Under the pieces are notes generated by a model. It searched no databases, was not told the DNA's origin, and was given only the letters and a program-made list of their open reading frames with translations. Below, in pieces: positions 3,011 to 51,520 of a stretch of 64,000 nt of DNA. This DNA is from Bacillus sp. UNC438CL73TsuS30 (GTDB taxonomy: Bacteria; Bacillota; Bacilli; Bacillales; Cytobacillaceae): positions 186,001 to 250,000 of the forward strand of contig NZ_AXVA01000010.1 of assembly GCF_000482325.1 (NCBI RefSeq), written 5' to 3'. Position 1 is the first letter of the stretch; every line of letters starts with the position of its first letter. The position numbers and the translations under genes were made by a program.

Positions 3011-3097
3011 GGTCCATATATTAGCTGGAGCGGAACATAAAATTGGTAAAATGGAACATAAATTGATTAATATGGAACATAAATTAGAAATCCGATG
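3011..3097 (+). repeat. 21-bp tandem repeat block, GGAACATAAA family
   Basis: The core GGAACATAAA recurs exactly every 21 bp at 3032, 3053 and 3074, with a weaker unit at 3011. The 11 bases after each core vary. In one frame the block reads as heptapeptides beginning MEHK or AEHK and ends at a TGA, but no ribosome binding site precedes it. Confidence 0.85.
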
Positions 3098-3217
3098 AAA
3101 AAGGTATCTTTGAATTGGTGATATCAGGTAAATGTAGCAAAATACAATGAAAATAAAGGGAAGAAAGTTACTAGAGCCAGGCAGAATGCCTGGATTTTAA
3201 GCGATTTAAGGTGGTTT

Positions 3218-3301
3218 AGAACATATATTCATCAATTAGGAACATAAATAATGTGAAATGGCACATAAACCAACCAATATAGAACATAAACTCAAAACCT
3301 A
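3218..3301 (+). repeat. 21-bp tandem repeat block, second GGAACATAAA array
   Basis: Units begin at 3218, 3239, 3260 and 3281, each exactly 21 bp apart, with the core varying as AGAACATATA, GGAACATAAA, GGCACATAAA and AGAACATAAA. In-frame stops show that this copy is not coding. Confidence 0.85.
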
Positions 3302-3303
3302 TA

Positions 3304-3337
3304 TAAAAAAGAGACGCTGCTCAGTGCAGCGTCTCTT
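3304..3337 (-). terminator. Intrinsic terminator of the SWIM gene
   Basis: GAGACGCTGC and GCAGCGTCTC form a ten-pair stem. The A-run on its left becomes a U-run for leftward transcripts, so it ends the leftward SWIM gene. A related hairpin lies at 36733-36763. Confidence 0.85.
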
Positions 3338-3398
3338 CCTCTGTCCGCGTGGAATGGACAAAATTGACGGAAAGTCCACGGGCGGTGCCTGTCACCGT

Positions 3399-3437
3399 AT
3401 TGAATCACCGCATTGAATCATCGCGTTGAATCACCGC
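3399..3437. repeat. 13-bp triplicated repeat beside stop codon
   Basis: Three head-to-tail copies of ATTGAATCACCGC (with single changes) fill 39 bp just downstream of the SWIM gene stop codon. Confidence 0.75.
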
Positions 3438-3438
3438 A

Positions 3439-5061
3439 TTAACTTTCGACCAGCTTGCTCCGTTTGCATTCTTCATGGAATGCGCGGAGGCGTTTGGTTC
3501 GTTCCATAAGGGTTTCGATGAAGTATTCCCAGTCGTCGACACGTTTGACTTTTTTGTAGATGGTCCGTAGTTTTTTTAGGTGCCGTACGGCCATTTTGTA
3601 GCTGGAGCGGTTTTTGGCGTCGATTTCCCGCTGGGCCGATTGGTGGAGCAGCGCGAGCAGCACCTCGGGCTTTTCTTTTTCAATCAACTTCACCCGGTCC
3701 TTCGGGATATCATAGAAATTCAACCCGACAAACGCCTGGAGCTCGCCCCATTTATCAAACATCCCACGTTCAAACAGCAAATATTCATAATCCGAATAGC
3801 TGTAAGGAAGCGTCTGCATCAATGCTTTTTCAAATAAATCAAAGCGGTCATTCCCGCCGCAATAGGGAGCAATCGCCCGAATCGCCGTTCTCGTAAAACT
3901 TGAACAACTATGATATCCGCTCAGAGAGTCCAAGTACTTTTTAATTTTCCCGATAAACAGTTCAATCACTGGCCCAACACGTTTCCATGCCTTCTGGCCG
4001 CTCAAAAGATCAATCCAGTAAAGGATGTAAGGCACAGTCCAATCATCTCCGGAAGCTTGGATCAGTTTAAGTGCCGAATCATCCTTTTGCAAAAGAAAGT
4101 TCAAGTGAACCTCGGCAATCATCAGCGGCCCTGGGGTTTCCCAATCCTGGAGCTCCTTCATCCGCGAACGGATCTTCAAAATTTCCTCTTCGCGCCATTC
4201 CTTCTTTTTAAACAATCCGGTCCAAAGCAGGCGGTAAAAATAGATCCGTTCAAATTCAAGACGCTGCACACAGGTCAACAAATCAAAGGCGTCGTCCTTT
4301 AGTTTTAGAATAAACTCATCAAAATCAAACGGCATCGACTGCATGCCGATCTTTTCGACAAGCTCTTCGGCATCATCCAGTAATTTTTCAAACAAGCTGC
4401 CATAGGTACGTTTCGATATTTCCTCGGAGTGTTCCGAACGTTCACTGAGCATGGCCAGCTTTTTAAACGAAATGACCGTTCCAACCATTTCATAGAGCAG
4501 ACGCCATTCTTTTTCAACCGGGGCACTGGCTCGAACCCGACGTTCAAAAATTTTGAATAACTCCTCGACCACATAAGGGCTCGTCGATTTCTTCGACTGC
4601 AGGAGCGTATCAAAGCTCACTTCAAAGGAATGGACCCAACGTCCGTAATCCGGCTTCATCACACCGTTGGCCTTGATCAAATCTTTCGCCGCCTGGAGTC
4701 CCCAACTAGTGGCCGCCTTTTTTTCCTTCATCGGTTCGCGCCACGCTTCAACCCACTCAGCGACACTGCCGACCCGTGAATAAGCCGCAAAAAAAACAGC
4801 CATTTGATGGCGGCACCATTCGTCAGAAGGGCAGGAGCATTCACTCATCGTAAAAAAGGTGAGGTCGAGGGTTACCTTCACCGGTGTCACATCCTGAACT
4901 GTCGCTGTGACCGTATCCTTGCCGAACGAAAGCTGCGACACCAACCCTTGCCGGTACAGCATCAATCCCTTTTGGACCATCCTCGCATCCTCAGTGGAAT
5001 TCGGACTAAGCAAATCCGCAATCTCCGCCGCAAATCCCTGTATCTCCTCCGTCAACTCCAA
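3439..5061 (-). CDS. SWIM zinc-finger protein
   Basis: A 540-residue protein with a SWIM motif near residue 95: the pattern CSC, then six residues, then CRH (CxC...CxH zinc ligands). The remainder is helical and charged and carries no catalytic motif I recognise. SWIM domains bind zinc and are linked to DNA or protein binding, and in bacteria they often accompany helicases, though none is encoded here. The frame is open upstream to 5172, but that extension runs through a dispersed palindrome (5143-5191), and a TATAAT box (5107-5102) lies immediately before the ATG at 5100, so that ATG would not be transcribed. The TTG at 5061, preceded by AAAGGGGG at eight bases, is the better start. Confidence 0.8.
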   Translation of the reverse strand: MELTEEIQGFAAEIADLLSPNSTEDARMVQKGLMLYRQGLVSQLSFGKDTVTATVQDVTPVKVTLDLTFFTMSECSCPSDEWCRHQMAVFFAAYSRVGSVAEWVEAWREPMKEKKAATSWGLQAAKDLIKANGVMKPDYGRWVHSFEVSFDTLLQSKKSTSPYVVEELFKIFERRVRASAPVEKEWRLLYEMVGTVISFKKLAMLSERSEHSEEISKRTYGSLFEKLLDDAEELVEKIGMQSMPFDFDEFILKLKDDAFDLLTCVQRLEFERIYFYRLLWTGLFKKKEWREEEILKIRSRMKELQDWETPGPLMIAEVHLNFLLQKDDSALKLIQASGDDWTVPYILYWIDLLSGQKAWKRVGPVIELFIGKIKKYLDSLSGYHSCSSFTRTAIRAIAPYCGGNDRFDLFEKALMQTLPYSYSDYEYLLFERGMFDKWGELQAFVGLNFYDIPKDRVKLIEKEKPEVLLALLHQSAQREIDAKNRSSYKMAVRHLKKLRTIYKKVKRVDDWEYFIETLMERTKRLRAFHEECKRSKLVES

Positions 5062-5142
5062 AACCAAAACCCCCTTTACCCGAAAAAATCCATATTCCAT
5101 TATTATACCCAAAAAATCATGGTAAGAGGAGGGGAGTGCTTG

Positions 5143-5191
5143 AATCGACAAATTTCGGGTGGTGACAGGCACTGCCCGAAATTTGTCGATT
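5143..5191. repeat. Dispersed palindrome, copy 1
   Basis: Perfect 17-bp arms (AATCGACAAATTTCGGG and its complement) surround GTGGTGACAGGCACT. The loop reads ACAGG on the + strand, opposite to the orientation of most copies. Confidence 0.9.
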
Positions 5192-5366
5192 GTATTTTTT
5201 CCGCTATGGTGAATAAATTACTGTTTCTTGGGCATTCTGTTAGTACTGAACTAGCTCCTATCGTATTTTAGCTCTGATTTGGTTACCTTCTAGCCAGGTT
5301 AATCTAGGGTTTACGATATGGGGTTAGTTTTTATTTTGGGTAGCTTTCGCTTTTGGTGATTTGAAT

Positions 5367-5440
5367 TTACTCTCCGGTTTGGGTCATTTACCCACCAGTT
5401 CCGTAGTTTTACCTTCCGCTTTTGCTGTTTAACCGTCCAC
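5367..5440 (-). repeat. 21-bp repeat array, GGTGGGTAAA family
   Basis: On the + strand the complement TTTACCCACC-like cores start at about 5367, 5388, 5409 and 5430, at a 21-bp period. Confidence 0.75.
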
Positions 5441-5551
5441 TACGACCTTTCCTTGATCTTAATTCCGAAAAAGGTGACATTCCCTGAGGGGAAAAGTGAG
5501 ATTTCCAAACAAAACTACGAAAAATCCACCAACCAACTACCTACCAATCCG

Positions 5552-5650
5552 TTTACCCTCCACATTTAAAGGTTCACCCACCGATTTAGTCCATTTACAT
5601 ACCAGCTCGGTAGTTTTACCCTCCACTTTTGCAACTTTACCGTCCACATT
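5552..5650 (-). repeat. 21-bp repeat array, GGTGGGTAAA family
   Basis: Cores such as TTTACCCTCC recur at about 5552, 5573, 5595, 5616 and 5637. The period is 21 bp with one-base slips. Confidence 0.8.
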
Positions 5651-5673
5651 GATTTCAACCCGCCCACTAAGCC

Positions 5674-5722
5674 ATTCGACAAAATTCGGGTGGTGACAGG
5701 CACCGCCCGAATTTTGTCGAAT
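5674..5722. repeat. Dispersed palindrome, copy 2
   Basis: Arms ATTCGACAAAATTCGGG and complement, loop ACAGG on the + strand. Confidence 0.92.
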
Positions 5723-5824
5723 ATTTAGAAATCTATTGCGCGATGGAGAGTTGGGTTATATAATTATGGTCAGGACCGTTATTAACCGAAATTATTTCAA
5801 TCAAAAAGATGGAGGGTGAGTTGA

Positions 5825-7039
5825 ATGGGTAGTGGTAGGCGTCATTTTATTTTTTCGTTGTTGTTCCTGGGGTGGTTGGTGGATTCATTGACGTTGTTTG
5901 GGATGAATGTGGCAATTATTCCGATTAGTAAGGAGTTGCATTTGTCGCAGACACAGAGCGGGATGGTGATTAGCAGCTTCTGGTTGAGCAGTGCGTTAAT
6001 GACCTTGATTGCCGGCTGGGTCTCCGACAAATTTGGGTCCAGAAAAATCATCGTTATTGCCGTATTTATCATTTCATTATTTTCATTGCTAACCGGGATG
6101 ACTGGATCATTCATCGCAATTCTAGCCATTCGTTTTGTTCTTGGATTAGGGGACGGGGGTCTTCCTACAGGCTCTGGTGTCGCGATCACTGAAATTTACA
6201 AAAGAGAAGTTCGCGCACGGGCCAAGTCGATGCTGCTTGCTGCACAATTAATCGGCGGAGTCCTCGCCTTATATCTAGCTGGAATTATCGCTGACACATG
6301 GGGCTGGCGCGTGATGTTTTACATCGTTGGCGGTCTAGGGCTCATTACAACCCTATTACTCTTTAAATATTACAATCCACCAAAGGTTGAAAAATCAACC
6401 AGCAATCAATCTACAACCTTACCAATGAAAGACCTATACAAAAGCAAACTTCTTTGGACGATCGTCATCATGTATTTTTGTTCAAGTGTGGTCCACTGGG
6501 GATTCTCCTCCTGGCTACCGTCATATTTGGAGCAAACCCGCCACCTAAATTTACGAGATGTGGGCTCACTTTCGATGATTCCACAAGCATGTGGATTGCT
6601 AGCGGCCGTTCTTACAGGCTTTTTAATCGACAAATCCTTAGCAGGCAAGGAAAAATTCATCGTTTTAATTGGTGCAATTGTTTCTGGAATTTGCCTCTAT
6701 TTAATGTTTAAAGCACCAAATATTCAAGAGGCACTTACGTATCAAAGTATCTTCTCTGTGGGTGATTCGGCGATTGCGATGGCAATTATCACGATTCCGC
6801 TCAAATATGTTTCACAAAATATCATTGGCTCGTTTATGGGAATGATGTATTTTGCCGGGGGAATGGCCGGGTTTATTGCACCAACCGCAATGGGGGCGCT
6901 AATCGACAGTTTTGGAGGGTCATTCCAAGCAGCATTCATCTTCCTCATTTGCGCACTGGCGGTCGTGTTAATTTGCGGCTTATTCTATAAAATTCCAAAA
7001 AATAACCCTAGTATTATAGAGAATAAACAATCAGCATAA
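5825..7039 (+). CDS. MFS transporter
   Basis: A 404-residue integral membrane protein with 12 predicted transmembrane segments. The cytoplasmic loop between segments 2 and 3 reads GWVSDKFGSRK, the major-facilitator signature, and IADTWGWRVMF follows segment 5. GGAGGGTGAG precedes the ATG at good spacing. The amidohydrolase gene begins 13 bp after the stop, so the two are an operon; the transporter probably brings in the acyl-amino-acid or peptide-like substrate of that enzyme. The substrate itself is inference. Confidence 0.9.
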   Translation: MGSGRRHFIFSLLFLGWLVDSLTLFGMNVAIIPISKELHLSQTQSGMVISSFWLSSALMTLIAGWVSDKFGSRKIIVIAVFIISLFSLLTGMTGSFIAILAIRFVLGLGDGGLPTGSGVAITEIYKREVRARAKSMLLAAQLIGGVLALYLAGIIADTWGWRVMFYIVGGLGLITTLLLFKYYNPPKVEKSTSNQSTTLPMKDLYKSKLLWTIVIMYFCSSVVHWGFSSWLPSYLEQTRHLNLRDVGSLSMIPQACGLLAAVLTGFLIDKSLAGKEKFIVLIGAIVSGICLYLMFKAPNIQEALTYQSIFSVGDSAIAMAIITIPLKYVSQNIIGSFMGMMYFAGGMAGFIAPTAMGALIDSFGGSFQAAFIFLICALAVVLICGLFYKIPKNNPSIIENKQSA

Positions 7040-7052
7040 GAGGTGACTAAAC

Positions 7053-8459
7053 ATGGATTTTCGCACAAGATTATCAGCAATCATCGAAGAAAAGCGGGAA
7101 AAACTAATTCAAGTAAGTGATAAAATTTGGAGCTATGCGGAAACAGGTTTCGAAGAATTTCAATCAGCAGACCTGCTATGCAAGACATTAGAAGAAGAGG
7201 GATTTTCGGTAGAAAAAGGCATCGCCGATATTGAAACCGCTTTTATCGGCAGCTACGGAAGCGGCAAACCAGTCATTGCTTTTTTAGGAGAGTTTGATGC
7301 CCTTACAGGGTTAAGCCAAAACGGCGGCGCCACACAACCGGACCCTGAAAAAACTGGTGGCAATGGCCATGGCTGCGGACATAACCTGCTCGGAACAGGT
7401 TCTCTTGCTGCAGCGATCGCCCTAAGAACTTATATGATAGAAAATAATCTAGAAGGAACGGTCCGTTATTACGGCTGCCCGGGAGAGGAAATTGGCGGCG
7501 GCAAAACATTTATGGCGAGAGCGGGAGTGTTTGATGATGTCGATTTTGCCTTAACCTGGCACCCGGGAACTACGAATAATATCTGGTCGGCGAGAACCCT
7601 TGCTTGTTATGAAGTCTATTTCAAATTCAAGGGAAAAAGTTCACACGCGGCAGCAACTCCGCATTTAGGTAGAAGCGCCCTTGACGGTGTTGAACTGATG
7701 AATATCGGTGTAAATTATTTACGGGAACATATCATTCCTGAAGCACGGGTACATTACGCGATCACCAACACGGGCGGCTTTTCCCCAAATGTTGTTCAGG
7801 CGGAGGCAGAAGTCTTGTATTTTGTGAGGGCACCAAGGGTTTCGCAGACGGAGGAAATCTACCAGCGGGTTTGCGAGATTGCGAGGGGAGCGGCGCTTAT
7901 GAGTGGCACCGAGGTTGAAATTGACCTTGCCTCAGCGCTCTCGAATGTGATTCCGAATACGACGCTTGAAAAAGCGATGTATGAGAACTTCGTGGAATTG
8001 GGTGTGCCGGAGCATACTGGAGAGGAGCTTCAATTTGCACAAAAAATCCGTGCGACACTGGCGGAGGCGGACAAGAAGTTTGAGGTGGAGAAGAATCAAG
8101 CTTTGGCCGGTAAAGATATGGCGGATCTCATTAATCCGTTCTCTCCTGACGAATTCATGGCAGGTTCGACCGATGTGGGGGATGTGAGCTGGATTGTGCC
8201 GACTGCGCAATGTATGACGGCCTGCGAACCGCTCGGTACCCCGCTCCATACGTGGCAAATTGTTGCGACGGGAACGACGTCGCTTGCGCACAAGGGAATG
8301 CTTCATGCTGGAAAAATTATGGCCGCAACCGCAGTCGATGTCTTGCAGAAGCCGGAACTCATCGAAAAAGCAAAGGCGGAACTGGTGGAGCGCCGGGATG
8401 GGGAAGAGTATGTGTGTCCATTACCGCCCGAGGTAAAGGAATATAAGGTTCGGATCTGA
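7053..8459 (+). CDS. M20-family amidohydrolase, AbgB-like
   Basis: A 468-residue protein of the M20D amidohydrolase family. The metal-binding segment GNGHGCGHNLLG (near residue 103) gives the conserved H-x-C-G-H, followed by the acid pair GEEIGGG near residue 148 and a dimerisation domain starting near residue 185 (KGKSSHAAATPH). The length and glycine-rich metal loop are most like AbgB, the p-aminobenzoyl-glutamate hydrolase subunit, but this family also includes aminoacylases and N-acyl hydrolases. There is no AbgA partner next door. It is coupled to the MFS gene before it and has its own AGAGGTGA ribosome binding site. Confidence 0.87.
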   Translation: MDFRTRLSAIIEEKREKLIQVSDKIWSYAETGFEEFQSADLLCKTLEEEGFSVEKGIADIETAFIGSYGSGKPVIAFLGEFDALTGLSQNGGATQPDPEKTGGNGHGCGHNLLGTGSLAAAIALRTYMIENNLEGTVRYYGCPGEEIGGGKTFMARAGVFDDVDFALTWHPGTTNNIWSARTLACYEVYFKFKGKSSHAAATPHLGRSALDGVELMNIGVNYLREHIIPEARVHYAITNTGGFSPNVVQAEAEVLYFVRAPRVSQTEEIYQRVCEIARGAALMSGTEVEIDLASALSNVIPNTTLEKAMYENFVELGVPEHTGEELQFAQKIRATLAEADKKFEVEKNQALAGKDMADLINPFSPDEFMAGSTDVGDVSWIVPTAQCMTACEPLGTPLHTWQIVATGTTSLAHKGMLHAGKIMAATAVDVLQKPELIEKAKAELVERRDGEEYVCPLPPEVKEYKVRI

Positions 8460-8469
8460 TGACAAGGAA

Positions 8470-8501
8470 AAGGCGTGCACCTTGTAAGCACGCCTTTTTA
8501 T
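8470..8501 (+). terminator. Terminator of MFS-amidohydrolase operon
   Basis: AGGCGTGC and GCACGCCT pair across an eight-base loop and are followed by TTTTTA. Confidence 0.9.
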
Positions 8502-8503
8502 AT

Positions 8504-9058
8504 TCAATGAGGATTTAAAACGTTCATGAATTCATCTTTTAATTTCTCTAACTGCTCTTTGACACCGCGATCAATCAGATTTCCTTTCTCATCAAACTTC
8601 TCACGGGCATTCCCCACTTGGATCATAGGTCTATTGATCAACTTTACATTTAAAGCAAGCATAACATCCCGTAAATGACTCTGTGAGACTCCAACCTGAA
8701 TGGAGGCAGCACCCATAACGGCAGTGGGTTTGCCTGCTAATGGTCTTTGTAAAGAACCGCGTGATAACCATTCTAGAGCATTTTTTAGTACAGCCGTATA
8801 GGACAAATTGTATTCGGGTGTACTAACGATGACAGCATCCGCAGACTCCACTAATTCTTTAAGTTTTAATACGGTTTCAGGCAAGTTGTTTTCTCTTTCT
8901 TCGCTAAAAAAGGGGAGTTCTGATAAATCAGCTATTGTAAATTTAATGTGATCGGGCAGCTGCTGCCCAAATGCACGTAATAGACCGCGGTTAAACGAAT
9001 GTTTACGTAAGCTGCCGCATATTCCCACAATATGTAATTCGGATTTTAAGTCTTCCAT
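8504..9058 (-). CDS. NADPH-dependent FMN reductase
   Basis: A 184-residue flavodoxin-fold protein of the NADPH-dependent FMN reductase family. It has the FMN phosphate loop GICGSLRKHSFNRGLL at the N-terminus, VSTPEYNLSYTAVLKNALEW near residue 80 and a GAASIQVGVSQSH loop near residue 118. Such enzymes reduce FMN, quinones, azo dyes or chromate using NADPH and are cytosolic. GGAGG precedes the ATG. It converges on the amidohydrolase operon terminator. The substrate is unknown. Confidence 0.9.
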   Translation of the reverse strand: MEDLKSELHIVGICGSLRKHSFNRGLLRAFGQQLPDHIKFTIADLSELPFFSEERENNLPETVLKLKELVESADAVIVSTPEYNLSYTAVLKNALEWLSRGSLQRPLAGKPTAVMGAASIQVGVSQSHLRDVMLALNVKLINRPMIQVGNAREKFDEKGNLIDRGVKEQLEKLKDEFMNVLNPH

Positions 9059-10079: not shown

Positions 10080-10247
10080 TTGTTTGTTAAAAAAGACGGT
10101 ATCCATATTGGTACCATTTCAGGCGGGGTTGTCAACTTCGGTGGGTCAGCTTTTAATTCACCGATCACTGTAGCAAAAACACTTCGGGGGGCTGGAGAAG
10201 GCAATACGGGGACAATCATTATAACGAACATAGGACGCAGAATATGA
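10080..10247 (+). CDS. Short GerP-like spore protein (55 aa), TTG start
   Basis: A small gene starting with TTG after AGGGGG at eight bases. The 55-residue product (start MFVKKDGIHIGTISGG) contains VVNFGGSAFNSP, then AGEGNTGTIIITNIG, the same order of motifs as the two GerP-like proteins upstream but shorter. The third member suggests a local family of spore germination or coat proteins. The short length makes it easy to miss. Expression is unproven. Confidence 0.75.
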   Translation: MFVKKDGIHIGTISGGVVNFGGSAFNSPITVAKTLRGAGEGNTGTIIITNIGRRI

Positions 10248-10318
10248 ATTCAGATTGCGATTTTGTTCCGTTATTTTGTACGATCAGCAACAAAGATGAC
10301 GAAAAGAGCCTTAAAAAA

Positions 10319-10350
10319 CAAAAAGGACAAGCTTTTGCTTGCCCTTTTTG
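10319..10350 (+). terminator. Intrinsic terminator
   Basis: AAAAGGACAAGC and GCTTGCCCTTTTT form a stem around TTTT, 72 bp after the short GerP-like gene. Confidence 0.85.
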
Positions 10351-10454
10351 TAATACTAGTTTTTAGGATGTTTGTAATAAACTAGGCATCCATCCAATCA
10401 TATTTGGGTGAACACTCATAATCTACTGTAACTTTAAATGAGAGGATGATTGGA

Positions 10455-10595
10455 ATGGCTTACTACATAATTTTGCATCACTACCATCCATGGCATACAC
10501 CCATTTATGTGCCATTTTTTCCATCACCGGTATCACCAGCTACTCTTACCTATCGAAATTTGTTGAACAATTATGGTGCAAAATACCTTTATTAG
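10455..10595 (+). CDS. Small His/Tyr/Pro-rich protein (46 aa)
   Basis: An ATG frame of 46 residues preceded by AGAGGATG at a workable spacing and followed 18 bp later by a terminator. The product is rich in histidine, tyrosine and proline (HHYHPWHTP, PFFPSPVSP), a composition seen in small spore-coat proteins. I do not recognise a family. Its place beside gerP-like genes fits a sporulation role, but that is inference. Confidence 0.5.
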   Translation: MAYYIILHHYHPWHTPIYVPFFPSPVSPATLTYRNLLNNYGAKYLY

Positions 10596-25641: not shown

Positions 25642-25650
25642 GAACTGGAA

Positions 25651-25689
25651 AGAACAAAGGGTGGTGCACTGTCACCGCCCGAATGTTCT
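25651..25689. repeat. Decayed dispersed palindrome
   Basis: AGAACA and TGTTCT flank GGGTGGTGCACTGTCACCGCCC; the arms have drifted from the standard copy. Confidence 0.7.
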
Positions 25690-25699
25690 AAGGTAAAGG

Positions 25700-25820
25700 T
25701 TTACCCACCGGTTTAGCAATTTACCAACCGGTTCAGTAACGTTACCCACCGGTTTAGCAATTTACCAACCGGTTCAGTAACGTTACCCACCGCTTTAGCA
25801 CATTTACCCTCCACTTCAAC
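25700..25820 (-). repeat. 21-bp repeat array, GGTGGGTAAA family
   Basis: TTACCCACCGG and TTACCAACCGG cores start at 25701, 25721, 25742, 25762, 25783 and 25804. A further loose set continues at about 25925-26030. Confidence 0.85.
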
Positions 25821-26042
25821 TTACAACAACCCAAAATGTAATTTTAAAACCAATTATCAGAAGCAAAAATGAAATTTAATCGATAAAAAGACTAAAAACC
25901 CACTAACCAACTACAACCCAATCCATTTACCCACCACTTTCGAAGAGTTACCCACCGGTTTGAAAAGGTTACCAACTGGTTTGAGCACTTTATCTCCCGG
26001 TTCAGCGGTTTTACCCACCACTCCACACCCCCTCAACAAATA

Positions 26043-29322: not shown

Positions 29323-29323
29323 C

Positions 29324-36644: not shown

Positions 36645-36732
36645 TAGCCTAATAGAGAGATTTCACGTGTTAAGAAAAGTATTATGAAAGTTTTCAAAGC
36701 CATCGGAACATAAATCCAAATCCCAATCAAAG

Positions 36733-36763
36733 AAGAGACGCCGCCCAAAGCAGCGTCTCTTTC
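36733..36763 (+). terminator. Hairpin terminator
   Basis: AAGAGACGC and GCGTCTCTT stem, a relative of the terminator at 3304-3337. Confidence 0.78.
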
Positions 36764-36821
36764 CCTGTCCGCGGCACCACTCGATTTTTGACGATGGACC
36801 AAGCGGACGGTTCGGCCAAGT

Positions 36822-36900
36822 GGTGGGTAAACGAGCAAAACTGGAATGTAAATCGGAAAGAGCGGGGAAAAAAGCCCCGAAACCTGTGGGTAAAAGCAAG
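36822..36900 (+). repeat. 21-bp repeat block A, GGTGGGTAAA family
   Basis: Units start at 36822, 36843, 36864 and 36885, exactly 21 bp apart. Confidence 0.88.
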
Positions 36901-36996
36901 ATTTGCAGTTTTATAGGAAAAGTGGGGACAGGAATTTATTAAAAAAGGTATTTGGATGCGGTAGAGGCTTTGGAAAGTTGGGGATATTATCGAAGT

Positions 36997-37097
36997 GGAG
37001 GGTATTTCAGCCAAAGTGGAGGGTAAACGAGCAAAACCGGAGTGTAAATCGGAAAAAGCAGGGGGTAAAGCCTCGAAACCGGAGGGTAAAAGCAAGA
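36997..37097 (+). repeat. 21-bp repeat block B, GGTGGGTAAA family
   Basis: Units start at 36997, 37018, 37039, 37060 and 37081, all 21 bp apart. Parts of blocks A and B also share long flanking sequence. Confidence 0.9.
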
Positions 37098-37213
37098 TTT
37101 GCAGTTTTGTAGGAAAAGAGGGGACGGGAATTTACTAAAAAAGGAAATTTCCTTTCAAAAAAAGGTATCTGAGCCAGGTAGAGGCCTCTTAATGAGGAAG
37201 ACTTTATCGAAGC

Positions 37214-37290
37214 GGAGGGTATTTCAGCCAAAGTGGTGGGTAAACGAGCAAATCCGGAGTGTAAATCCGTAAAAGCGGAGGGTAAAGTCC
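37214..37290 (+). repeat. 21-bp repeat block C, GGTGGGTAAA family
   Basis: Units start at 37214, 37235, 37256 and 37277, all 21 bp apart. Confidence 0.88.
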
Positions 37291-37350
37291 CAATAAGGCC
37301 GGCTCTTAAACAGGTGCTCATCTCCCCATGCTGAATATGTTTTATACATA

Positions 37351-37387
37351 AAAAAAACGGGTGGTGCACCACCCGTTTTTTGTCGAA
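37351..37387. repeat. Short form of the dispersed palindrome
   Basis: AAAAACGGGTGGTGCACCACCCGTTTTT-like hairpin: the CCTGT centre is lost and GTGCAC closes the loop. It ends seven bases before the stop of the leftward GntR gene and could terminate it. Confidence 0.85.
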
Positions 37388-43935: not shown

Positions 43936-44299
43936 TAGGCGACAGTTGGACCACGTATCAGCATGATAATGTCGCCAATGAGCGCTCTAGGCGACAGTTG
44001 GACCGCGGAACACGCAGGAAATGTCGCCAATGGGTCCTCTAGGCGACAGTTGGACCGCGGATCACGAAGAAAATGTCGCCAATGAGTCCTGTAGGCGACA
44101 GTTGGACCACGTATCACACTGGAAATGTCGCCAATGAATGATCTAGGCGACAGTTGGACCACGTATCACACTGGAATTGTCGCCAATGAATGATCTAGGC
44201 GACAATTGGACCATGGGTCACGCAGGAATTGTCCCCAATAAGGCATCTAGGCGACAGTTAGGCCATGAATCACGCAGAAATTGTCGCCAATGAGTCTAA
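43936..44299 (+). repeat. Seven 52-bp tandem repeats with hairpins
   Basis: Seven consecutive 52-bp units, each beginning TAGGCGACAGTTGGACC or a near variant, containing a variable middle (about 12 bp) and ending with TGTCGCCAATGA and six variable bases. GGCGACA and TGTCGCC pair within each unit and between neighbouring units. A partial eighth unit follows at 44300. Confidence 0.93.
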
Positions 44300-44395: not shown

Positions 44396-44479
44396 ATCTG
44401 CCGAAAATGAACTTTTATCTGCGTTGCTGGGGCATTTATCTGCGATACTCAGACTTTTATCTGCGAAGCTTTAAAAGCA
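44396..44479 (-). repeat. 21-bp repeat array, CGCAGATAAA family
   Basis: ATCTGC(G/C) cores start at 44396, 44417, 44438 and 44459, 21 bp apart; on the - strand the core reads CGCAGATAAA. Confidence 0.85.
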
Positions 44480-45907: not shown

Positions 45908-46005
45908 CCGTCCGCTTCAACCATCTTAGTTTGAAAACAACCATGACCATTCATACAGTCTTAAAAAAGTAGATTCATGTTTTCAAAGAATAGGAGGAAG
46001 TCTTA

Positions 46006-47325
46006 ATGAATAATAGCAGTGCTCAACGGATTAGCCCTGAGGGTCAGAACCTTAAACAAACCAGAGTCCGGTATTTAATCCTTTCCATGTTATTTATCGT
46101 TACGATTATTAACTATATTGACCGTTCTGCTCTTGGTATCGCTGCTCCCGTCATGCGAGAAGATCTCGCTTTTGATGCGGTAAAAATGGGAATTGCCTTT
46201 TCAGCTTTTAACTGGGCATATACGATCTTTAACATCCCAGGCGGATGGCTGCTCGATCGATTTGGCGCACGAAATGTTTATGGAATTGCCTTATTATTAT
46301 GGTCCGCTTGTACGTTTTTTCAAGGATTTATCAGCACATTAGTAGGATTATTCATTTTACGATTCTTAGTGGGAATCATGGAAGCTCCGTCCTTTCCAGG
46401 AAACAGCCGATTAACCACCATGTGGTTTCCGCAGCATGAGCGTGGAAGAGCGGTATCGATTTATAACTCTGCACAATTTTTTGGATTAGCCCTTTTTACA
46501 CCGGTTATGACATGGATCTTAAAAGATTTTGGCTGGAGTCATGTATTTTGGGTATCAGGAGGAGCCGGGATCGTAATGGCACTCCTATGGTTTAAGTTTG
46601 TCCGTGAACCTTATAATCATCCACGTGTCAATCAAGCGGAAATTGATTATATTAATTCAGGCGGGGGACTTGCCAATGAAGAACAAAAGCGAAAATGGAA
46701 ATGGTCTGATGTCCGTCTGTTGTTGACCAATCGCCAAATGGCTGGAATTTATATTGGTCAGTACGCAATGAATACGATTGTATGGTTTTTCTTATCTTGG
46801 TTCCCTACGTATCTTGTTGAAGAGAAAGGCTTGACCCTTATTCAAACCGGTTTTGCCGCATCGATCCCGTATGTGGGAGCATTTTTTGGAGGTCTTTTCG
46901 GAGGATTTCTTTCTGACACCTTATTGAAAAAAGGAAAATCACTCGCTACGGCACGTAAAACACCAATCATTGCGGGATTTCTTTTATCAAGCAGCATCGT
47001 ATTAGCGAACTACACTTCAAATATTTCGATTATTATCATTATTATGACTCTATCCTTTTTCGCTAAAGGGATGGCAGGGATTACGTGGTCCCTTGTCGGG
47101 GATATGGCACCAAAGGAACTGGTTGGTTTAACCGGCGGTATCTTTAATACAATCGGAAATACAGCAGGAATTGTCACACCATTAGTAATCGGACTAATAT
47201 TCGCCAAAACCCATTCCTTCAACGGCGCCCTCATCTTTGTAGCAAGCGTCATGATGATCGGAGCACTAGCCTACATCTTCATCGTAAACAAACCAGAAAG
47301 ACTTGAATTAGCAGATAAAAAATAG
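46006..47325 (+). CDS. gudP: MFS permease, glucarate/galactarate type
   Basis: A 439-residue MFS transporter of the anion:cation symporter family. YLILSMLFIVTIINYIDRSALGIAAPVM near residue 25 is the family start, and GGWLLDRFGARNVYG the loop 2-3 signature. Homologues (GudP, GarP, ExuT-like) import glucarate and galactarate by proton symport. Its place with two gudD, garD and kdgD supports that role. AGGAGGAAG precedes the ATG. Confidence 0.9.
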   Translation: MNNSSAQRISPEGQNLKQTRVRYLILSMLFIVTIINYIDRSALGIAAPVMREDLAFDAVKMGIAFSAFNWAYTIFNIPGGWLLDRFGARNVYGIALLLWSACTFFQGFISTLVGLFILRFLVGIMEAPSFPGNSRLTTMWFPQHERGRAVSIYNSAQFFGLALFTPVMTWILKDFGWSHVFWVSGGAGIVMALLWFKFVREPYNHPRVNQAEIDYINSGGGLANEEQKRKWKWSDVRLLLTNRQMAGIYIGQYAMNTIVWFFLSWFPTYLVEEKGLTLIQTGFAASIPYVGAFFGGLFGGFLSDTLLKKGKSLATARKTPIIAGFLLSSSIVLANYTSNISIIIIIMTLSFFAKGMAGITWSLVGDMAPKELVGLTGGIFNTIGNTAGIVTPLVIGLIFAKTHSFNGALIFVASVMMIGALAYIFIVNKPERLELADKK

Positions 47326-47330
47326 TCATT

Positions 47331-47376
47331 TTCGACAAAATTCGGGTGGTGCCTGGCACCACCCGAATTTTGTCGA
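47331..47376. repeat. Dispersed palindrome, copy 7
   Basis: TTCGACAAAATTCGGGTGGTG arms with loop CCTGG, six bases after the permease stop. Probably serves as its terminator. Confidence 0.9.
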
Positions 47377-47435
47377 CTATTTGTATGAAAAATATACCTT
47401 CAGGAGAAATTAACAGAAAGAAAGGAAGGTAGAGT

Positions 47436-47993
47436 ATGTGCCCAGATGTATTCGAAGCTATTAAGAATGTGGTTGCATCGTTAGTGGACGATGAGCCCAA
47501 ATCGCCATTACATGTTGGTGAAGTGATGTCTTGCTGGTTATTTTTAGCTTTAAGCGCGGAGACGCAGGTACAGACGGAAGCAGGAATAAACAGCACTACC
47601 GACCCTGAATTAAGAAAAGCTCTACATGAAGCAGTAGAGATGTTTAAAGCGCAGAAAGAGCAGCTTGCAGCCTTTTTGCGATTAGAAGGAGTACCCTTAC
47701 CACCCACTAGTGAATCCAAACCCATCTCAGATCCAAATAGTGTCCCGCTTGGTGTGAAATTGACGGATAACGAACTTGCAAACAGTCTTAGGAAAAAAAT
47801 CACGATGGCGATTACCAACTGTTCCGCTGCTTCAGCTCAAACAATCCGTAACGATGTTGGCATCATGTGGGGGAAATTTTTACACGAACATATCATCTTT
47901 TTAACGACACTTAAATCAGTAATGCGAAAACGAGGGTGGCTCAAATCTCCACCGCCGTATCATCCACCAGGTTCTCCGAATACAGGAAGGTGA
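47436..47993 (+). CDS. DUF3231 family protein, single domain
   Basis: A 185-residue DUF3231 protein with HVGEVMSCWLFLALSAETQ near residue 30, NSTTDPELRKALHEAVEMFKAQK near residue 55, and EGVPLPP near residue 90. Function unknown; helical bundle. It is followed by a close paralogue whose start overlaps the same RBS cluster, so the two are a tandem duplication. GGAAGG precedes the ATG. Confidence 0.82.
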   Translation: MCPDVFEAIKNVVASLVDDEPKSPLHVGEVMSCWLFLALSAETQVQTEAGINSTTDPELRKALHEAVEMFKAQKEQLAAFLRLEGVPLPPTSESKPISDPNSVPLGVKLTDNELANSLRKKITMAITNCSAASAQTIRNDVGIMWGKFLHEHIIFLTTLKSVMRKRGWLKSPPPYHPPGSPNTGR

Positions 47994-47998
47994 GAAAT

Positions 47999-48547
47999 GT
48001 GCCAGACCTATTAGAAGCGGTTAAAAATATAGTTCAATCGTTGATGGACGATGAGCCGAAACCACCGTTACATGTTGGGGAGGTTATGACTTTTTGGTCC
48101 TTCCTTTCTGAAATGGGGGATGAACAAGTCCATTCGGAGGCAGGGATGAACAGTACAACGGACCCCGAATTAAGGAAAGCCTATCAAGAAACCATATCCA
48201 TGCTCAAATCACAGAAAGAACGAATGATTGCATTGTTACAGTCAGAAGGAGTACCCTTACCGCCTTTAAGTGAGTCGAAACCCATCTCAGACCCAAATAA
48301 GGTACCGCCCGGTGTCAAGTTGACCGATGATGAACTTGCAAACAGCATTAGTATTAAAATGTATTTAGGTATTTCCTATTGTGCTACCGCGATCAATGAG
48401 TGCGCACGCAATGATGTTGGTTTGATCTGGATAGAATTTTTAGAGGAATACATGATTTTTGGATCAAACATGAAAGCCCTTCTAAAAAAACGAGGGTGGC
48501 TGAAAGTTCCACCTCTTTATTATCCCCCCGGTTTACCGAGTCAATGA
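47999..48547 (+). CDS. DUF3231 family protein, second tandem copy
   Basis: A 182-residue paralogue: LHVGEVMTFWSFLSEMGDEQ, NSTTDPELRKAYQET, EGVPLPPLSESKPISDPNKVPPG. GTG at 47999 is preferred over an ATG at 47936 inside the previous gene, because AAGGTGAG lies just before and the alignment of the two products begins there. The two proteins share about the same length and C-terminal YYPPG-type ending. The 335-residue gene at 12617 is a two-domain relative. Confidence 0.82.
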   Translation: MPDLLEAVKNIVQSLMDDEPKPPLHVGEVMTFWSFLSEMGDEQVHSEAGMNSTTDPELRKAYQETISMLKSQKERMIALLQSEGVPLPPLSESKPISDPNKVPPGVKLTDDELANSISIKMYLGISYCATAINECARNDVGLIWIEFLEEYMIFGSNMKALLKKRGWLKVPPLYYPPGLPSQ

Positions 48548-48610
48548 CAACAGCTGTCCTAAAGGGATGGCTTTTTCTTGTTGAACTACCAGAAACATCA
48601 ACTTCGCTAG

Positions 48611-48659
48611 ATTCGACAAAAATCGGGTGGTGCCTGTCACCACCCGATTTTTGTCGAAT
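48611..48659. repeat. Dispersed palindrome, copy 8
   Basis: ATTCGACAAAAATCGGG-type arms with loop CCTGT, 64 bp after the DUF3231 stop. Confidence 0.92.
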
Positions 48660-48790
48660 TACCTGCTGGGATAAATGAGGTTGCTGAAGTCGCCCCTATT
48701 TGATTGACCTGACATAGAAGCTAAGTAGTAGAAGGTATTTTTTTACACATATGAAATAAGTAATAGTATTCCTTGAAAGTGGGTGGCATG

Positions 48791-49279
48791 ATGAATCAAA
48801 ACGAATATGAATGGGTTCGACAAACCCGCGGCACACTATTAGACTTTTGTGCGCAACTAAATCCCCATGATTTTACTCACCAACATGGCTTCGCTTTGCA
48901 AAGTGTACGGGACACATTGATACATATAGCAGATTGTTACTATGCATGGCTCGGCTCATTTGTTTTAGAAAAGACAAAGAAGCCGATTACTCCAAAGGAG
49001 GAACGGGATCAATTTAATTTGGAAAAAATAAAGGAACGTTTTGAACAAGTAGATTCGATTGTAAATGAGGTATTTGAACTTCCTAGAAATCAATTAAATG
49101 AGATGATGGAAAAAAAGATCCCTTGGAGAGAGGCACCAGAAACACTATCCATCACAGCCGGAAAATTGCTCATGCATACCATTACACACGAATTCCATCA
49201 CAAGGGGCAAATTGTCGCCATGTTACGCCAAATGGGGTATGAACCCCCGAACACCGATGTATTAGGGACAGAAGATTAA
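48791..49279 (+). CDS. DinB-family protein
   Basis: A 162-residue DinB-like four-helix protein. It has three histidine metal ligands: one in LIHIADCYYAW near residue 47 and two in THEFHHKGQI near residue 135. Members include bacillithiol transferases and other thiol-dependent enzymes. The GGGTGG motif precedes the ATG pair at 48788 and 48791. The substrate is unknown. A bidirectional terminator follows. Confidence 0.82.
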   Translation: MNQNEYEWVRQTRGTLLDFCAQLNPHDFTHQHGFALQSVRDTLIHIADCYYAWLGSFVLEKTKKPITPKEERDQFNLEKIKERFEQVDSIVNEVFELPRNQLNEMMEKKIPWREAPETLSITAGKLLMHTITHEFHHKGQIVAMLRQMGYEPPNTDVLGTED

Positions 49280-49283
49280 TCTA

Positions 49284-49320
49284 AAAATGGGACCGATCCT
49301 CTAAAAAATCGGTCCCATTA
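49284..49320. terminator. Bidirectional terminator
   Basis: AATGGGACCGAT and ATCGGTCCCATT form a 12-pair stem between converging genes. Confidence 0.88.
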
Positions 49321-49328
49321 TCGCAATG

Positions 49329-49871
49329 TCAGTTTTTAAGCTTCAATTGAAGCTGTTCGGCAGCATGTAAGGCAGTTTTGTCCTGCTGGATATCCCCGGG
49401 CTTATTGCCCTCACCAATCACATACCCAGCAAACTCCATCCCCATAAAATCAAAAATATGCTTGAATTGCTGGATCATCGGTAACCCCTTCAAGTACGGA
49501 TTATCGCCGCCAACCGCAACTACATAGGCCTTCTTCGCAGCCATCTGCTTCTTAAAATCAGGATACCGCGCATCCCGCATCGAATGCGACCAGCGATCAA
49601 TAAAGTTCTTCATCGTCCCCGACATACTGTACCAGTAAACCGGCGTAGCAAAAATCAACGTGTCATGCTGCAACACCCGGTCAATCACAGCATTATAGTC
49701 ATCTCCGCGATCTTGGAATCCGGCCTCATCATGGCGCGCATCCTCAATCGGCAAAATTGAAAAATCCCTTAAGTTGATTCTCTCTACATCCAACCCGCGA
49801 ATCGCATGCTCAGTCAGTGCTTCCGTATTCCCATTTGGACGAGTTCCCCCGTAAAGAACCGCAATTGACAT
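49329..49871 (-). CDS. NADPH-dependent FMN reductase / flavodoxin-like
   Basis: A 180-residue flavodoxin-fold reductase: GGTRPNGNTEALTEHA near residue 7, TPVYWYSMSGTMKNFIDRWS near residue 75 and AYVVAVGGDNP near residue 115. Likely reduces FMN or quinones with NAD(P)H. ATG at 49871 is preferred, as AAAGGAGATGG ends just before it; the ATG at 49880 overlaps that ribosome binding site. Confidence 0.87.
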   Translation of the reverse strand: MSIAVLYGGTRPNGNTEALTEHAIRGLDVERINLRDFSILPIEDARHDEAGFQDRGDDYNAVIDRVLQHDTLIFATPVYWYSMSGTMKNFIDRWSHSMRDARYPDFKKQMAAKKAYVVAVGGDNPYLKGLPMIQQFKHIFDFMGMEFAGYVIGEGNKPGDIQQDKTALHAAEQLQLKLKN

Positions 49872-50041
49872 CTGTTCCATCTCCTTTATAAATGGATTTC
49901 CCTTCCATCATACCAAAAATCAACCGAAACCCATCATCCCGTGTTCGAGTCGACAAAGATATACATAAAACTACCATTACCGCCATTTTTCCCTTAAGTG
50001 ATATAATTTAGGTAAAAAGAGAATCGTAAGAGGTCAAGGCA

Positions 50042-51271
50042 ATGAGGAAAACAGGACAAATCACGCTCGTAGGTATTTCGTTATTATTTACTGCTTTTCA
50101 AAAAATGTATCACCAACAGGAATTTTTCACCATCGATTTTTTGATTTTCACCGTGATTGCATGGATCGTGGGCTATCAATATGACAAAGCCCGCCACTTC
50201 GAAAAAAAAGTCCGGGAAAGTGAGCGCAGCTACAAAAAACTCATTGATTCCCTGCCAGACCCGGTATACATACTAAAAGATCATAAATTTCTCTATGCCA
50301 ATCACGCCGCTGTCCGCATGGCAAGGGCAAAAAACAAAGAGGAACTGATAGGAAGACCGATTTTTGATTTTCTCGTGCCGGATTATCAAGACCGCGCACG
50401 CGAACGCTTTAAACAGATCCAAAAGGAAAAGTCCCCCGTCAATACCATCGAATACAAGGCAAAACGGCTCGATGGCTCAACCTTTTTCTTCGAAGTCTCT
50501 TCGATGTACATAGTTTTTGGCGGCCAGAAAGCCGTGCTTTCAATGGGAAAGGACATTTCAGCACGCAAAGAACAAACAGACCAGCTCCTGCAAAAATCGG
50601 AGAAGCTCGCACTGCTCGGCCAGATGGCGGCTGGGATTGCCCATGAGATCCGCAATCCGCTCACATCAATCCGCGGCTTTATTCAGCTGTTCAAGTCCGG
50701 ACAAAATCACCCGCAATATTTTGATATCGTACTCTCAGAGCTCGACCGGATTAACAGCATCGTCGGTGAATTCCTCGTACTCGCCAAGCCAACCGCATCG
50801 GTTTTGATTGAAAAAGATGTGAAAAATTTAATCAATGACGTCGTCACCCTGATCAATACCCAGTCGATTTTGAACAATGTCCAGATCTATGTCGAGTTCG
50901 ACAGCGACCTGCCAATGGTGATGTGCGAGGAGAATCAGCTCAAGCAGGTATTTCTGAACCTGCTGAAGAATGCGATTGAGGCGATGCCCACAGGCGGCCA
51001 AATCGACGTGAAGGTCAAGCAAAAGGAAGATGGCAAAATATCGATTCAAATCATCGACCAGGGCGTGGGGATTCCTGAAGACCGTATTCCGACACTTGGC
51101 GAGCCGTTTTACACCACAAAGGAAAAAGGCACCGGCCTCGGCCTGATGACCTGTTACAAAATTATCGAAAACCATAACGGAGAAATTAAGATTACGAGTG
51201 TAGTAGACGAGGGCACCACGGTAGAGGTCACGCTGCCAACGATTACGCAGTCGTTGTTGGTGATGTCGTAG
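50042..51271 (+). CDS. PAS sensor histidine kinase, sporulation-kinase type
   Basis: A 409-residue kinase: two hydrophobic helices near the N-terminus (residues 8-45), one PAS domain (about 65-175, SLPDPVYILKDHKFLYANHAAV), a HisKA dimerisation domain with the phospho-histidine in AGIAHEIRNPLTSIRGF near residue 200, and an HATPase domain (NLLKNAIEAM, DQGVGIP, GTGLGLMTCYKII). The architecture suits KinA-E-type phosphorelay kinases; no response regulator gene is adjacent, which is usual for them. RBS AGAGGTCAAGG. Confidence 0.9.
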   Translation: MRKTGQITLVGISLLFTAFQKMYHQQEFFTIDFLIFTVIAWIVGYQYDKARHFEKKVRESERSYKKLIDSLPDPVYILKDHKFLYANHAAVRMARAKNKEELIGRPIFDFLVPDYQDRARERFKQIQKEKSPVNTIEYKAKRLDGSTFFFEVSSMYIVFGGQKAVLSMGKDISARKEQTDQLLQKSEKLALLGQMAAGIAHEIRNPLTSIRGFIQLFKSGQNHPQYFDIVLSELDRINSIVGEFLVLAKPTASVLIEKDVKNLINDVVTLINTQSILNNVQIYVEFDSDLPMVMCEENQLKQVFLNLLKNAIEAMPTGGQIDVKVKQKEDGKISIQIIDQGVGIPEDRIPTLGEPFYTTKEKGTGLGLMTCYKIIENHNGEIKITSVVDEGTTVEVTLPTITQSLLVMS

Positions 51272-51319
51272 GGCGGGGGTTGCTCGTGAAGTAAGAAGAA
51301 TATTAGATAAATCGTCCCT

Positions 51320-51348
51320 ATACCTGCCAAAGTGGCAGGTATTTTTGT
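51320..51348 (+). terminator. Terminator of the kinase gene
   Basis: ATACCTGCC and GGCAGGTAT around AAAGT, then TTTTTG. Confidence 0.9.
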
Positions 51349-51425
51349 TGAAAATGGTAATTTTGCTTTGAAGAAGGGATTTGATCATGAAGGATACCCT
51401 CATTCCAGCAGATTGAATACGAAGT

Positions 51426-51520
51426 GGTGGGTAAAAGGGCAAAAGTAGTGTATATTGGTTAGAACCGGAATGTAAACTCCCTAAAGTGGTGGGTAAAGAG
51501 CAAAAACCGGTGGGTACACG
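51426..51520 (+). repeat. 21-bp repeat array, GGTGGGTAAA family
   Basis: Units start at 51426, 51447, 51467, 51488 and 51509. Confidence 0.83.

Follow-up and report, generated by a model that had tools for sequence, protein, structure and literature searches.

Non-coding DNA of Bacillus sp. UNC438CL73TsuS30 carries directional arrays of short direct repeats, spaced by two helical turns (21 bp), which lie mostly behind genes and in the orientation of those genes. We hypothesize, with a probability of roughly one half, that they are arrays of helically phased binding sites at gene 3' ends, occupied by a putative DNA-binding reader. An earlier note had located three core families in the window (the whole stretch of DNA analysed, 64,000 nucleotides), and arrays with GGAACATAAA, GGWGGGTAAA and CGCAGATAAA cores were indeed found at or near those sites (Table 1), as borne out by core counts and 21-bp spacing. 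With at most one mismatch, the window holds 24 copies of GGTGGGTAAA against a shuffle mean of 3.8 (0 of 100 shuffles reach 24) and 15 of GGAACATAAA against a mean of 8.5 (1 of 100 reaches 15). For CGCAGATAAA the number of copies does not by itself reach significance (9 against a shuffle mean of 5.1, with 9 of 100 shuffles reaching 9), although three exact copies are spaced 21 bp apart.

Table 1. Repeat arrays in the window, with positions counted from its first nucleotide
Feature	Position	Strand	Context
21-bp array, GGAACATAAA x3	3032..3083	+	follows terminator-like hairpin behind upstream + ORF
second subarray, GGAACATAAA-like x3	3239..3290	+	207 bp beyond first
21-bp array, cores GGAAGGTAAA, GGTGGGTAAA, GGAGAGTAAA	5366..5417	-	
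21-bp array, five unit positions, TAAA in four (GGAGGGTAAA type)	5552..5645	-	between divergent ORFs
array with alternating 20/21-bp steps (41-bp unit), GGTGGGTAAM / GGTTGGTAAA cores	25700..25812	-	
second subarray, same family as 25700..25812	25926..26019	-	
21-bp array, GGTGGGTAAA-type cores	36822..36894	+	first of three subarrays (196 and 217 bp apart)
21-bp array, GGAGGGTAAA-type cores x4	37018..37090	+	subarray after 36822..36894
21-bp array, GGWGNGTAAA x3	37235..37286	+	third subarray of 36822 group
21-bp array, CGCAGATAAA x3	44414..44466	-	by eye antisense to both neighbouring + genes
21-bp array, GGTGGGTAAA-type cores	51426..51518	+	follows terminator-like hairpin
52-bp array (GGCGACA...TGTCGCC), second constant-size class	43936..44295	.	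intergenic region shared with CGCAGATAAA array

The period does not depend on the choice of cores. A core-free scan of 450 kb of this genome returned 23 regions at lag 21 and 20 at lag 42, followed by 5 at lag 52 and 4 at lag 18, and block-shuffled DNA gave one region summed over all lags; 21 bp (with 42) is the single strongly favoured non-coding repeat period in these 450 kb, and ORFs of at least 150 aa cover less than half of 20 of the 23 lag-21 regions. Core-to-core distances of up to 120 bp (n = 225), counted with six slightly overlapping TAAA-family patterns that are not independent samples, fall at 19 to 22 bp in 196 cases, at multiples in 26 and elsewhere in 3; a reversed pattern run as a control in a separate scan is not a clean null and matches other 21-bp arrays too. 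The arrays are scattered across chromosome-sized contigs, and several of those in the window comprise three repeats, others in this genome four or five. A blind 400-kb sample from 10 relatives yielded 3 regions at lag 21 (2 outside ORFs) and 10 at lag 52, so 21 bp is not dominant everywhere. With the exception of this blind sample, loci outside G000 were picked for TAAA arrays, not for orientation. A scan of contigs for GGTRGGTAAA pairs gave 10 loci, of which the analysis took up just those on the Bacillus sp. MUM 116 contig, and pattern scans of viral contigs gave 21 and 2 loci with a single pair at each; the contrast among phyla depends on reading 7 non-own matches as coding. A 21/42-bp repeat at 55298-55589 sits inside an ORF and appears to be coding.

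Once aligned, the units of 69 arrays show a 10-bp core, six bases that vary freely and, half a period from the core, an A/T-rich triplet, with S-R-N-N-N-R-T-A-A-A as the consensus of the TAAA-family cores; in this profile, which kept G043, L106 and L117, TAAA is fixed by construction and the filter was similarity at the first six positions. Spacers have already diverged within arrays whose cores stay nearly identical. Several claims of the earlier note need amendment here. In its 10 + 11 layout the "11 variable bases" resolve into about 6 free and 5 partly constrained positions, and the layout is not universal. TAAA is common only, since the 21-bp period also occurs with the cores TGTACAAAAC, AGTCCAAAAC, SGCGAAATA, CGCAAATGRAA and TGTYGATAT, and the period is not strictly 21 bp, given the 20 + 21 = 41 bp steps at 25700-25812 and the 41-bp arrays of genome G021. 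Both kinds of counterexample that the note had named, another period (52 bp) and cores without TAAA, exist. We also reject coding heptad repeats, which the note had entertained in the form of decayed peptides, because the reading frame is lost at steps of 20, 22 and 41 bp and one array (G000, C2:264058) contains a stop codon in frame.

The arrays are strongly polar with respect to genes. In 40 cases they have the same orientation as the gene that ends next to them, and in 7 they are antisense to it (p = 1e-6), in a set without G043 (a near-duplicate of G011), L106 and L117 (weak A-rich chains) and the window ORF repeat, in which the arrays counted are not independent samples. Further loci gave 22 sense and 4 antisense arrays (22/26, p = 5e-4), and a stop codon lies within 25 bp of 12 of these 22 sense arrays. 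None of 52 array regions mixes strands; among the array regions or arrays scored, 11 of 80 are antisense and 7 of 80 lie between divergent ORFs. Of the intergenic regions between convergent ORFs, 17 of 102 hold an array, compared with 30 of 436 between tandem ORFs and 5 of 135 between divergent ones. A terminator-like hairpin precedes the array in 17 of 40 sense regions and follows it in 9 of 40, by a crude scan that missed a clear hairpin behind upp in this genome. ORFs were called mechanically (at least 100 aa), which misjudged some contexts: a spurious ORF led to the array at 44414 being scored as divergent, and region 37018, scored as antisense, contains an undetected subarray at 36822. 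The genes adjoining the arrays look unrelated, judging from 25 of 152 Pfam families listed in a search that took in 102 of 106 flanking ORFs.

Comparison of orthologous arrays in G011 and G043 revealed changes at 3 of 259 core sites (1.2%), 18 of 220 spacer sites (8.2%) and 303 of 3492 flank sites (8.7%), and cores differ significantly from spacers (Fisher p = 2e-4). This comparison rests on six arrays from one species pair and sets aside units with non-21 steps (82 positions with 7 changes, or 30 with 1, by direction); as the arrays were located by their cores, changes on the detecting lineage are under-counted, and even when doubled the core change is below the spacer change. A single whole-unit (21-bp) gap is present in 4 of the 6 arrays. 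At the site downstream of upp (loci obtained for 30 of 40 genomes, the G020 stretch being only 299 bases), 14 of 24 genus members carry 21-bp arrays with dissimilar cores and 9 of 24 carry none, so that no single site is essential. The CGCAAATAAA core is common to several species of the genus, and other cores differ at one orthologous site. An alternative would be neutral satellites, in which slippage or unequal exchange, working at about two turns, generates drifting arrays that are tolerated behind genes, purged from promoters and served by no reader. The whole-unit indels, the tandemly repeated blocks of about 196 to 217 bp that contain some arrays, and the scarcity of arrays between divergent ORFs would fit this explanation, and the exact 21-bp gains and losses fit slippage, which the earlier note had invoked as a replication process fixed at 21 bp, or unequal exchange. 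Slippage alone is nevertheless insufficient, since spacers differ between units while cores remain alike and orthologous cores barely change as spacers change at the flank rate; these patterns, together with strand polarity, make neutral satellites an unlikely account.

The units also carry a helical signature. In 29 of 41 arrays no harmonic of A/T power exceeds the 10.5-bp one, compared with 18% of 1363 control pieces, and A/T content of the 52-bp arrays is phased at 10.4 bp, more weakly than in 21-bp arrays. The A/T phasing sets drop G043, and the control-piece comparison is also without L106, L117 and the window ORF repeat. Predicted curvature of the TAAA families is only modest, under a wedge model whose column permutations are not independent samples; the curvature set kept G043, and half of the 14 upp arrays (7), positioned manually, are included in both it and the A/T power set. 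Composition was compared in 72 arrays (without G043, G076, L106, L117 and the window ORF repeat). In 70 of 72 the sense strand exceeds the flanks in purine content, an excess owed in part to the many A bases of TAAA, and the antisense excess of C over G is above the flanks in 51 of 72. YC density shows no overall rise (above flanks in 41 of 72, p = 0.11), and it is 0.053 per nt in the eight CGCAAATAAA-led arrays, where the mean of the flanks is 0.124.

These strand properties invite the explanation that the arrays act as RNA, with cores in 3'-untranslated or read-through transcripts binding an RNA-binding protein or small RNA and thereby setting mRNA ends or stability. Sense polarity (40/47 and 22/26), the closeness of stop codons, the hairpins behind arrays and the purine-rich sense strand are all compatible with it; sense orientation and stop-codon proximity are also consistent with a role at mRNA 3' ends. 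Subirana and Messeguer, who in 2021 described tandem repeats of Bacillus that vary in sequence and keep a constant size (20-21 or 52 nt), likewise put forward small RNAs and refer to RNA-seq that detected transcripts of 52-nt repeats (PMC8161180). However, hairpins precede the array in 17 of 40 sense regions in the crude scan, and A/T phasing, in both the 21-bp and the 52-bp class, is a property of DNA. Six arrays folded as RNA gave nothing unusual (z -1.4 to +1.4) and the window has no Rfam match at gathering score; we found no sign of a structured RNA in either. An RNA role is thus possible, though we consider it improbable.

Much less probable are Rho loading sites, where the pyrimidine-rich antisense strand of the array would stop transcription invading from the opposite side. 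The position of arrays at 3' ends and between convergent ORFs, the antisense excess of C over G, and the finding, described in PMC9931155, that Rho of B. subtilis limits antisense read-through favour this idea, but the YC densities indicate that such sites are not general among the 72 arrays, and a fixed 21-bp period is left unexplained. It is equally doubtful that the arrays are transposase-binding ends with repeated sites of about 20 bp (IS21, Tn7 or Mu type) or their remnants: direct repeats are likewise present at IS21 ends, where IstA binds them through its tandem HTH domains (PMC10122671), and some arrays lie within repeated blocks, but inverted array pairs are absent (0 of 52 regions with mixed strands), no transposase is among the 25 of 152 Pfam families listed for 102 flanking proteins, and one array region (window 36811-37300) has no blastn match in phage or plasmid collections. 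This genome has five matches to PF01695, four above cut-off (best 64 bits); array orientation argues against IS21-type ends all the same, and the blastn result for that region led us to reject a plasmid or phage origin.

We therefore favour arrays of helically phased binding sites at gene 3' ends, which agrees with the suggestion of the earlier note that a DNA-binding protein with two-turn phasing may stand behind different sequences of one geometry; the arrays show signs of such a common constraint at the DNA level. Each 21-bp unit, consisting of a lineage-variable core plus an A/T-rich triplet about one turn away, would present an identical face of the DNA helix, along which a DNA-binding protein, or a few related ones with drifting specificity, may bind the cores cooperatively and bend or wrap the DNA. 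The array could then act as a directional boundary behind the gene that, for example, blocks read-through or opposing transcription or absorbs transcription-driven supercoiling. Duplication and deletion of units would lengthen and shorten arrays, and a change of reader would turn over the cores with the two-turn geometry retained. The analysis identified no reader protein, and the antisense arrays, those between divergent ORFs, the apparent lack of relation among neighbouring genes, the genus members without an array at upp, the small number of 21-bp regions in relatives and the modest predicted curvature speak against this interpretation. More tentatively, the arrays may be lineage-wide directional 3'-end elements, read by a candidate DNA-binding system in which the recognition sequence was repeatedly replaced while geometry, position and strand were kept, and the 52-bp arrays may be their five-turn version. 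The discoverers left open why tandem repeats fixed in size and free in sequence persist in some Bacillus genomes; polarity, core-only constraint, turnover at a fixed site and A/T phasing turn this puzzle into testable claims. The arrays would indicate that 3' ends or the nucleoid of Bacillales have a layer of organisation not yet described.

REP/BIME elements are placed behind genes. They resemble the arrays in being short, repeated and extragenic, with supercoiling, termination and mRNA stability discussed as roles (PMC3733652). REP units are palindromic; we reject identity with them because the 21-bp units are direct repeats, not palindromes, and six arrays lacked an unusual fold. The TAACTGA repeats of Beggiatoaceae are likewise abundant intergenic direct repeats with many sets per genome, and they differ in being one fixed heptamer located mostly just upstream of start codons (PMC4679880). 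As regards plasmid iterons, no rep family is among the 25 of 152 Pfam families listed for flanking proteins. Unit size by itself presumably argues against CRISPR. In mammals, Sal-box arrays behind rRNA genes are bound by TTF-I; these too are directional, repeated protein sites that follow a transcription unit, and, being eukaryotic, they offer an analogy only. Papers containing the repeat sequence strings were apparently irrelevant among the matches listed (15 of 145).

The closest counterpart is the class of Subirana and Messeguer (PMC8161180), which already covers these arrays, contrary to the note's impression that no named class matches. The arrays share its 20-21 nt size, several families of equal size within one genome, generally non-coding location, 40-41 nt variants, short conserved signal and patchy occurrence across species, and the TCGCGG signal of B. 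weihaiensis resembles CGCGGATAAA. That study demanded at least four repeats, unlike the three of several window arrays. Its 52-nt class, with one member in the window, has the same combination of constant size and variable sequence, and its units differ in often carrying inverted repeats, in being alike over most of their length and in spanning about five helix turns. The main text of PMC8161180 is silent on the terms orientation, intergenic, terminator, curvature and convergent. We provisionally regard as additions to this class the layout of core, six free bases and A/T triplet, the strand polarity at gene 3' ends, the A/T phasing at the helix repeat, the core constraint with whole-unit gain and loss in one species pair and the dissimilar cores at the orthologous upp site.

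Arrays of the kind reported in the earlier note, intergenic tandem direct repeats with a core-plus-spacer unit of about 21 bp, were found in the window (bases 186001-250000 of contig 5 of the 5.6-Mb source draft genome) as described. Scanning every period from 9 to 60 across 450 kb of the source genome returned 23 regions at a period of 21 and 20 at 42, followed by 52 (5 regions), 18 (4), and 24 and 48 (3 each), whereas block-shuffled DNA gave a single region for all periods together. When regions were kept only if less than half was covered by open reading frames (ORFs) of at least 150 amino acids, 20 remained at 21 and 4 at 52. As a general rule, the 21-bp period held only in part: it leads in the source genome, but in 400 kb chosen blindly from ten relatives the 52-bp period was ahead (10 regions versus 3, 2 of the latter outside ORFs). 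The 52-bp arrays that we list (see table) differ in sequence, and several have a clear inverted repeat inside the unit.

What is constrained in the arrays is the core together with its helical phase, rather than a coding frame. Successive cores of six TAAA families (10-bp cores ending in TAAA) gave 225 distances of up to 120 bp, of which 196 measured 19 to 22 bp, 26 were multiples of this spacing, and 3 were neither. The unit, as derived from 69 arrays, comprises a 10-bp core (within-array identity, 0.81 to 1.0), six free bases (0.31 to 0.43), an A/T-rich triplet (0.58 to 0.74), and two half-constrained bases (0.52 to 0.57). Because helix-period A/T patterns are known in prokaryotic intergenic DNA in general (PMC516772), control pieces matter here. 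For A/T content, the second harmonic (10.5 bp) was the largest in 29 of 41 21-bp arrays versus 18% of 1,363 control pieces, and the fifth harmonic (10.4 bp) was the largest in 7 of 14 arrays of the 52-bp class versus 11.5% of 817. Against permuted unit columns, all 34 tested arrays fell in the upper half for both A/T phasing and AA-wedge curvature, with only 59% and 35%, respectively, past the 5% level; under the full wedge model, the values were 85% in the upper half and 18% past the 5% level.

Constraint on the core is visible in a pair of related species (G011 and G043; eight matched stretches, 86 to 97% identical), in which differences affected 3 of 259 core, 18 of 220 spacer, and 303 of 3,492 flank positions, or 1 of 270, 22 of 221, and 183 of 3,005 when arrays were detected from the other genome, both directions resting on the same arrays. 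The gap was one whole 21-bp unit in 4 of 6 array alignments; one had no gap and one was ragged. Neutral satellites would agree with such gains and losses of units, but they are at odds with the core constraint and with the strand polarity described below, and we consider them unlikely. Downstream of upp, an orthologous site compared across 24 members of the genus, 14 had a 21-bp array, 1 a 52-bp array, and 9 none; no array was present there in the 6 members of other genera for which the locus was returned. Cores at this site include GGCCAATAAA and the similar GACCAATAAA, a group formed by AGTCCAAAAC, TGTACAAAAC, and TGGACAAAAC, and also GGAGGGTAAA, GGAAAGTAAA, and GRCGAGTAAA, and by reading, the A-rich strand is the upp sense strand in 13 of the 14 21-bp arrays.

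Thirty regions with periods of 20, 21, and 42 were read unit by unit: 17 were noncoding with at least three TAAA units, and the rest were judged to be 4 coding repeats, 5 regions with other 21-bp cores (e.g., TGTYGATATM and AACTGGCGGA), 2 weaker TAAA arrays, 1 low-complexity stretch, and 1 region without assignment. Genome-wide, CGCNNATAAA-N11-CGCNNATAAA had 85 matches in the source genome, and three relatives had 37, 40, and 38; the reversed pattern gave 0 matches. Five TAAA spaced 21 bp apart occurred in 44 of 80 genomes (source genome counted) and 12 of 33 genera, part of the matches being coding, and the core sequence differs between species among these genomes. In a phylum-wide draw, 8 of 149 genomes matched, including the source genome; the other 7 were read as coding repeats. 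A TAAA end in every 21-bp family, a point that the earlier note raised for checking, does not hold, with non-TAAA cores of this period present both in the source genome and elsewhere in the genus (SGCGAAATA, CGCAAATGRAA, and AAAATGATCCAATG).

Several further repeats were observed. GGWGGGTAAA subarrays recur as blocks of ~196 to 217 bp with a partly conserved segment in between (7 matches in the source genome and 6 in G002, a relative from the same genus). One ORF in the window contains 21/42-bp repeats; by our reading, these encode coiled-coil-like heptads and have no relation to the intergenic arrays. In G027, a relative from another family, an open frame giving VGKRATL repeats runs through a long GGTAGGTAAA array (3 + 11 TAAA units); the adjoining gene is presumably hisZ.

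Coordinates of repeat features in the window and in loci outside it
Feature	Stretch	Coordinates
52-bp array, intergenic	window	43936-44295
52-bp array, intergenic	L109	4731-5345
52-bp array, intergenic	L113	8106-9072
52-bp array, intergenic	L115	7302-7605
52-bp array, intergenic	L118	12902-13288
52-bp array, intergenic	L119	5672-6849
52-bp array, intergenic	L058	4027-4432
GGWGGGTAAA subarray blocks	window	36811-37290
GGWGGGTAAA subarray blocks	L062	10261-10787
GGWGGGTAAA subarray blocks	G002:C194	
GGTAGGTAAA array	L086 (G027)	10182-10504
21/42-bp repeats within ORF	window	54704-55702 (-)
Coding repeat (by reading)	L049	
Coding repeat (by reading)	L051	8212
Coding repeat (by reading)	L052	5235
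Coding repeat (by reading)	window	55298
Unassigned region (by reading)	L047	19757
Terminator-like hairpin	window	3310-3345
Terminator-like hairpin	window	36731-36775
GGGCGGTGCCTGTCACC / GGTGGTGCACCACCC-type sites	window	3378-3440
GGGCGGTGCCTGTCACC / GGTGGTGCACCACCC-type sites	window	5150-5190
GGGCGGTGCCTGTCACC / GGTGGTGCACCACCC-type sites	window	5670-5710
GGGCGGTGCCTGTCACC / GGTGGTGCACCACCC-type sites	window	25650-25690
GGGCGGTGCCTGTCACC / GGTGGTGCACCACCC-type sites	window	37355-37385

With intergenic regions limited to those 80 bp or longer, arrays were present in 17 of the 102 between convergent genes, 30 of the 436 between tandem genes, and 5 of the 135 between divergent genes, a sample enriched for array loci in which only the contrast between orientations has meaning. 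Of the 47 convergent and tandem regions with arrays, 40 had them on the strand of the gene with the nearest 3' end or, in the tandem case, of both neighbors; the 5 divergent regions are additional to these, and none of the 52 had arrays on both strands. A second set of 28 arrays, from 27 windows around CGCNNATAAA-pair loci of the source genome outside contig 5 that were picked blind to gene orientation, comprised 22 sense, 4 antisense, and 2 divergent cases. Terminator-like hairpins lay before the array in 17 of the 40 sense regions and behind it in 9, 1 of them having both. A role of the arrays in RNA would agree with the strand polarity, but such a role is doubtful, being at odds with the helical phasing and with the arrays located behind terminators; explanations as Rho sites or as transposon ends are less probable.

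One terminator-like hairpin (AGAGACGC...GCGTCTCT, then TGTCCGCG) occurs twice in the window, each time after GGAACATAAA sites, and GGGCGGTGCCTGTCACC / GGTGGTGCACCACCC-type sequences recur near array-bearing intergenic regions of the window. Genes adjoining arrays resemble a random selection (152 Pfam families in 102 proteins), with no family among the 25 shown present in more than 4 proteins, and no protein recognizing the cores was found. The most economical reading, to which we assign a probability of about 0.5, is that the arrays offer DNA sites along a single helix face to a putative protein that would bind them and bend or wrap the DNA, the sites lying downstream of genes and sharing their orientation.

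In Bacillus, Subirana and Messeguer (PMC8161180) described tandem repeats with a constant length of either 20 to 21 or 52 nt and with variable, largely species-specific sequences; they equated 21 with two helix turns and put forward polymerizing proteins, nucleoid stabilization, or small RNAs as roles. The suggestion that no named class matches the arrays is thereby superseded. The main text of that paper makes no mention of orientation, intergenic, terminator, curvature, or convergent, and the points added here beyond it are provisionally regarded as new. The arrays in the window are new members of this constant-size class.
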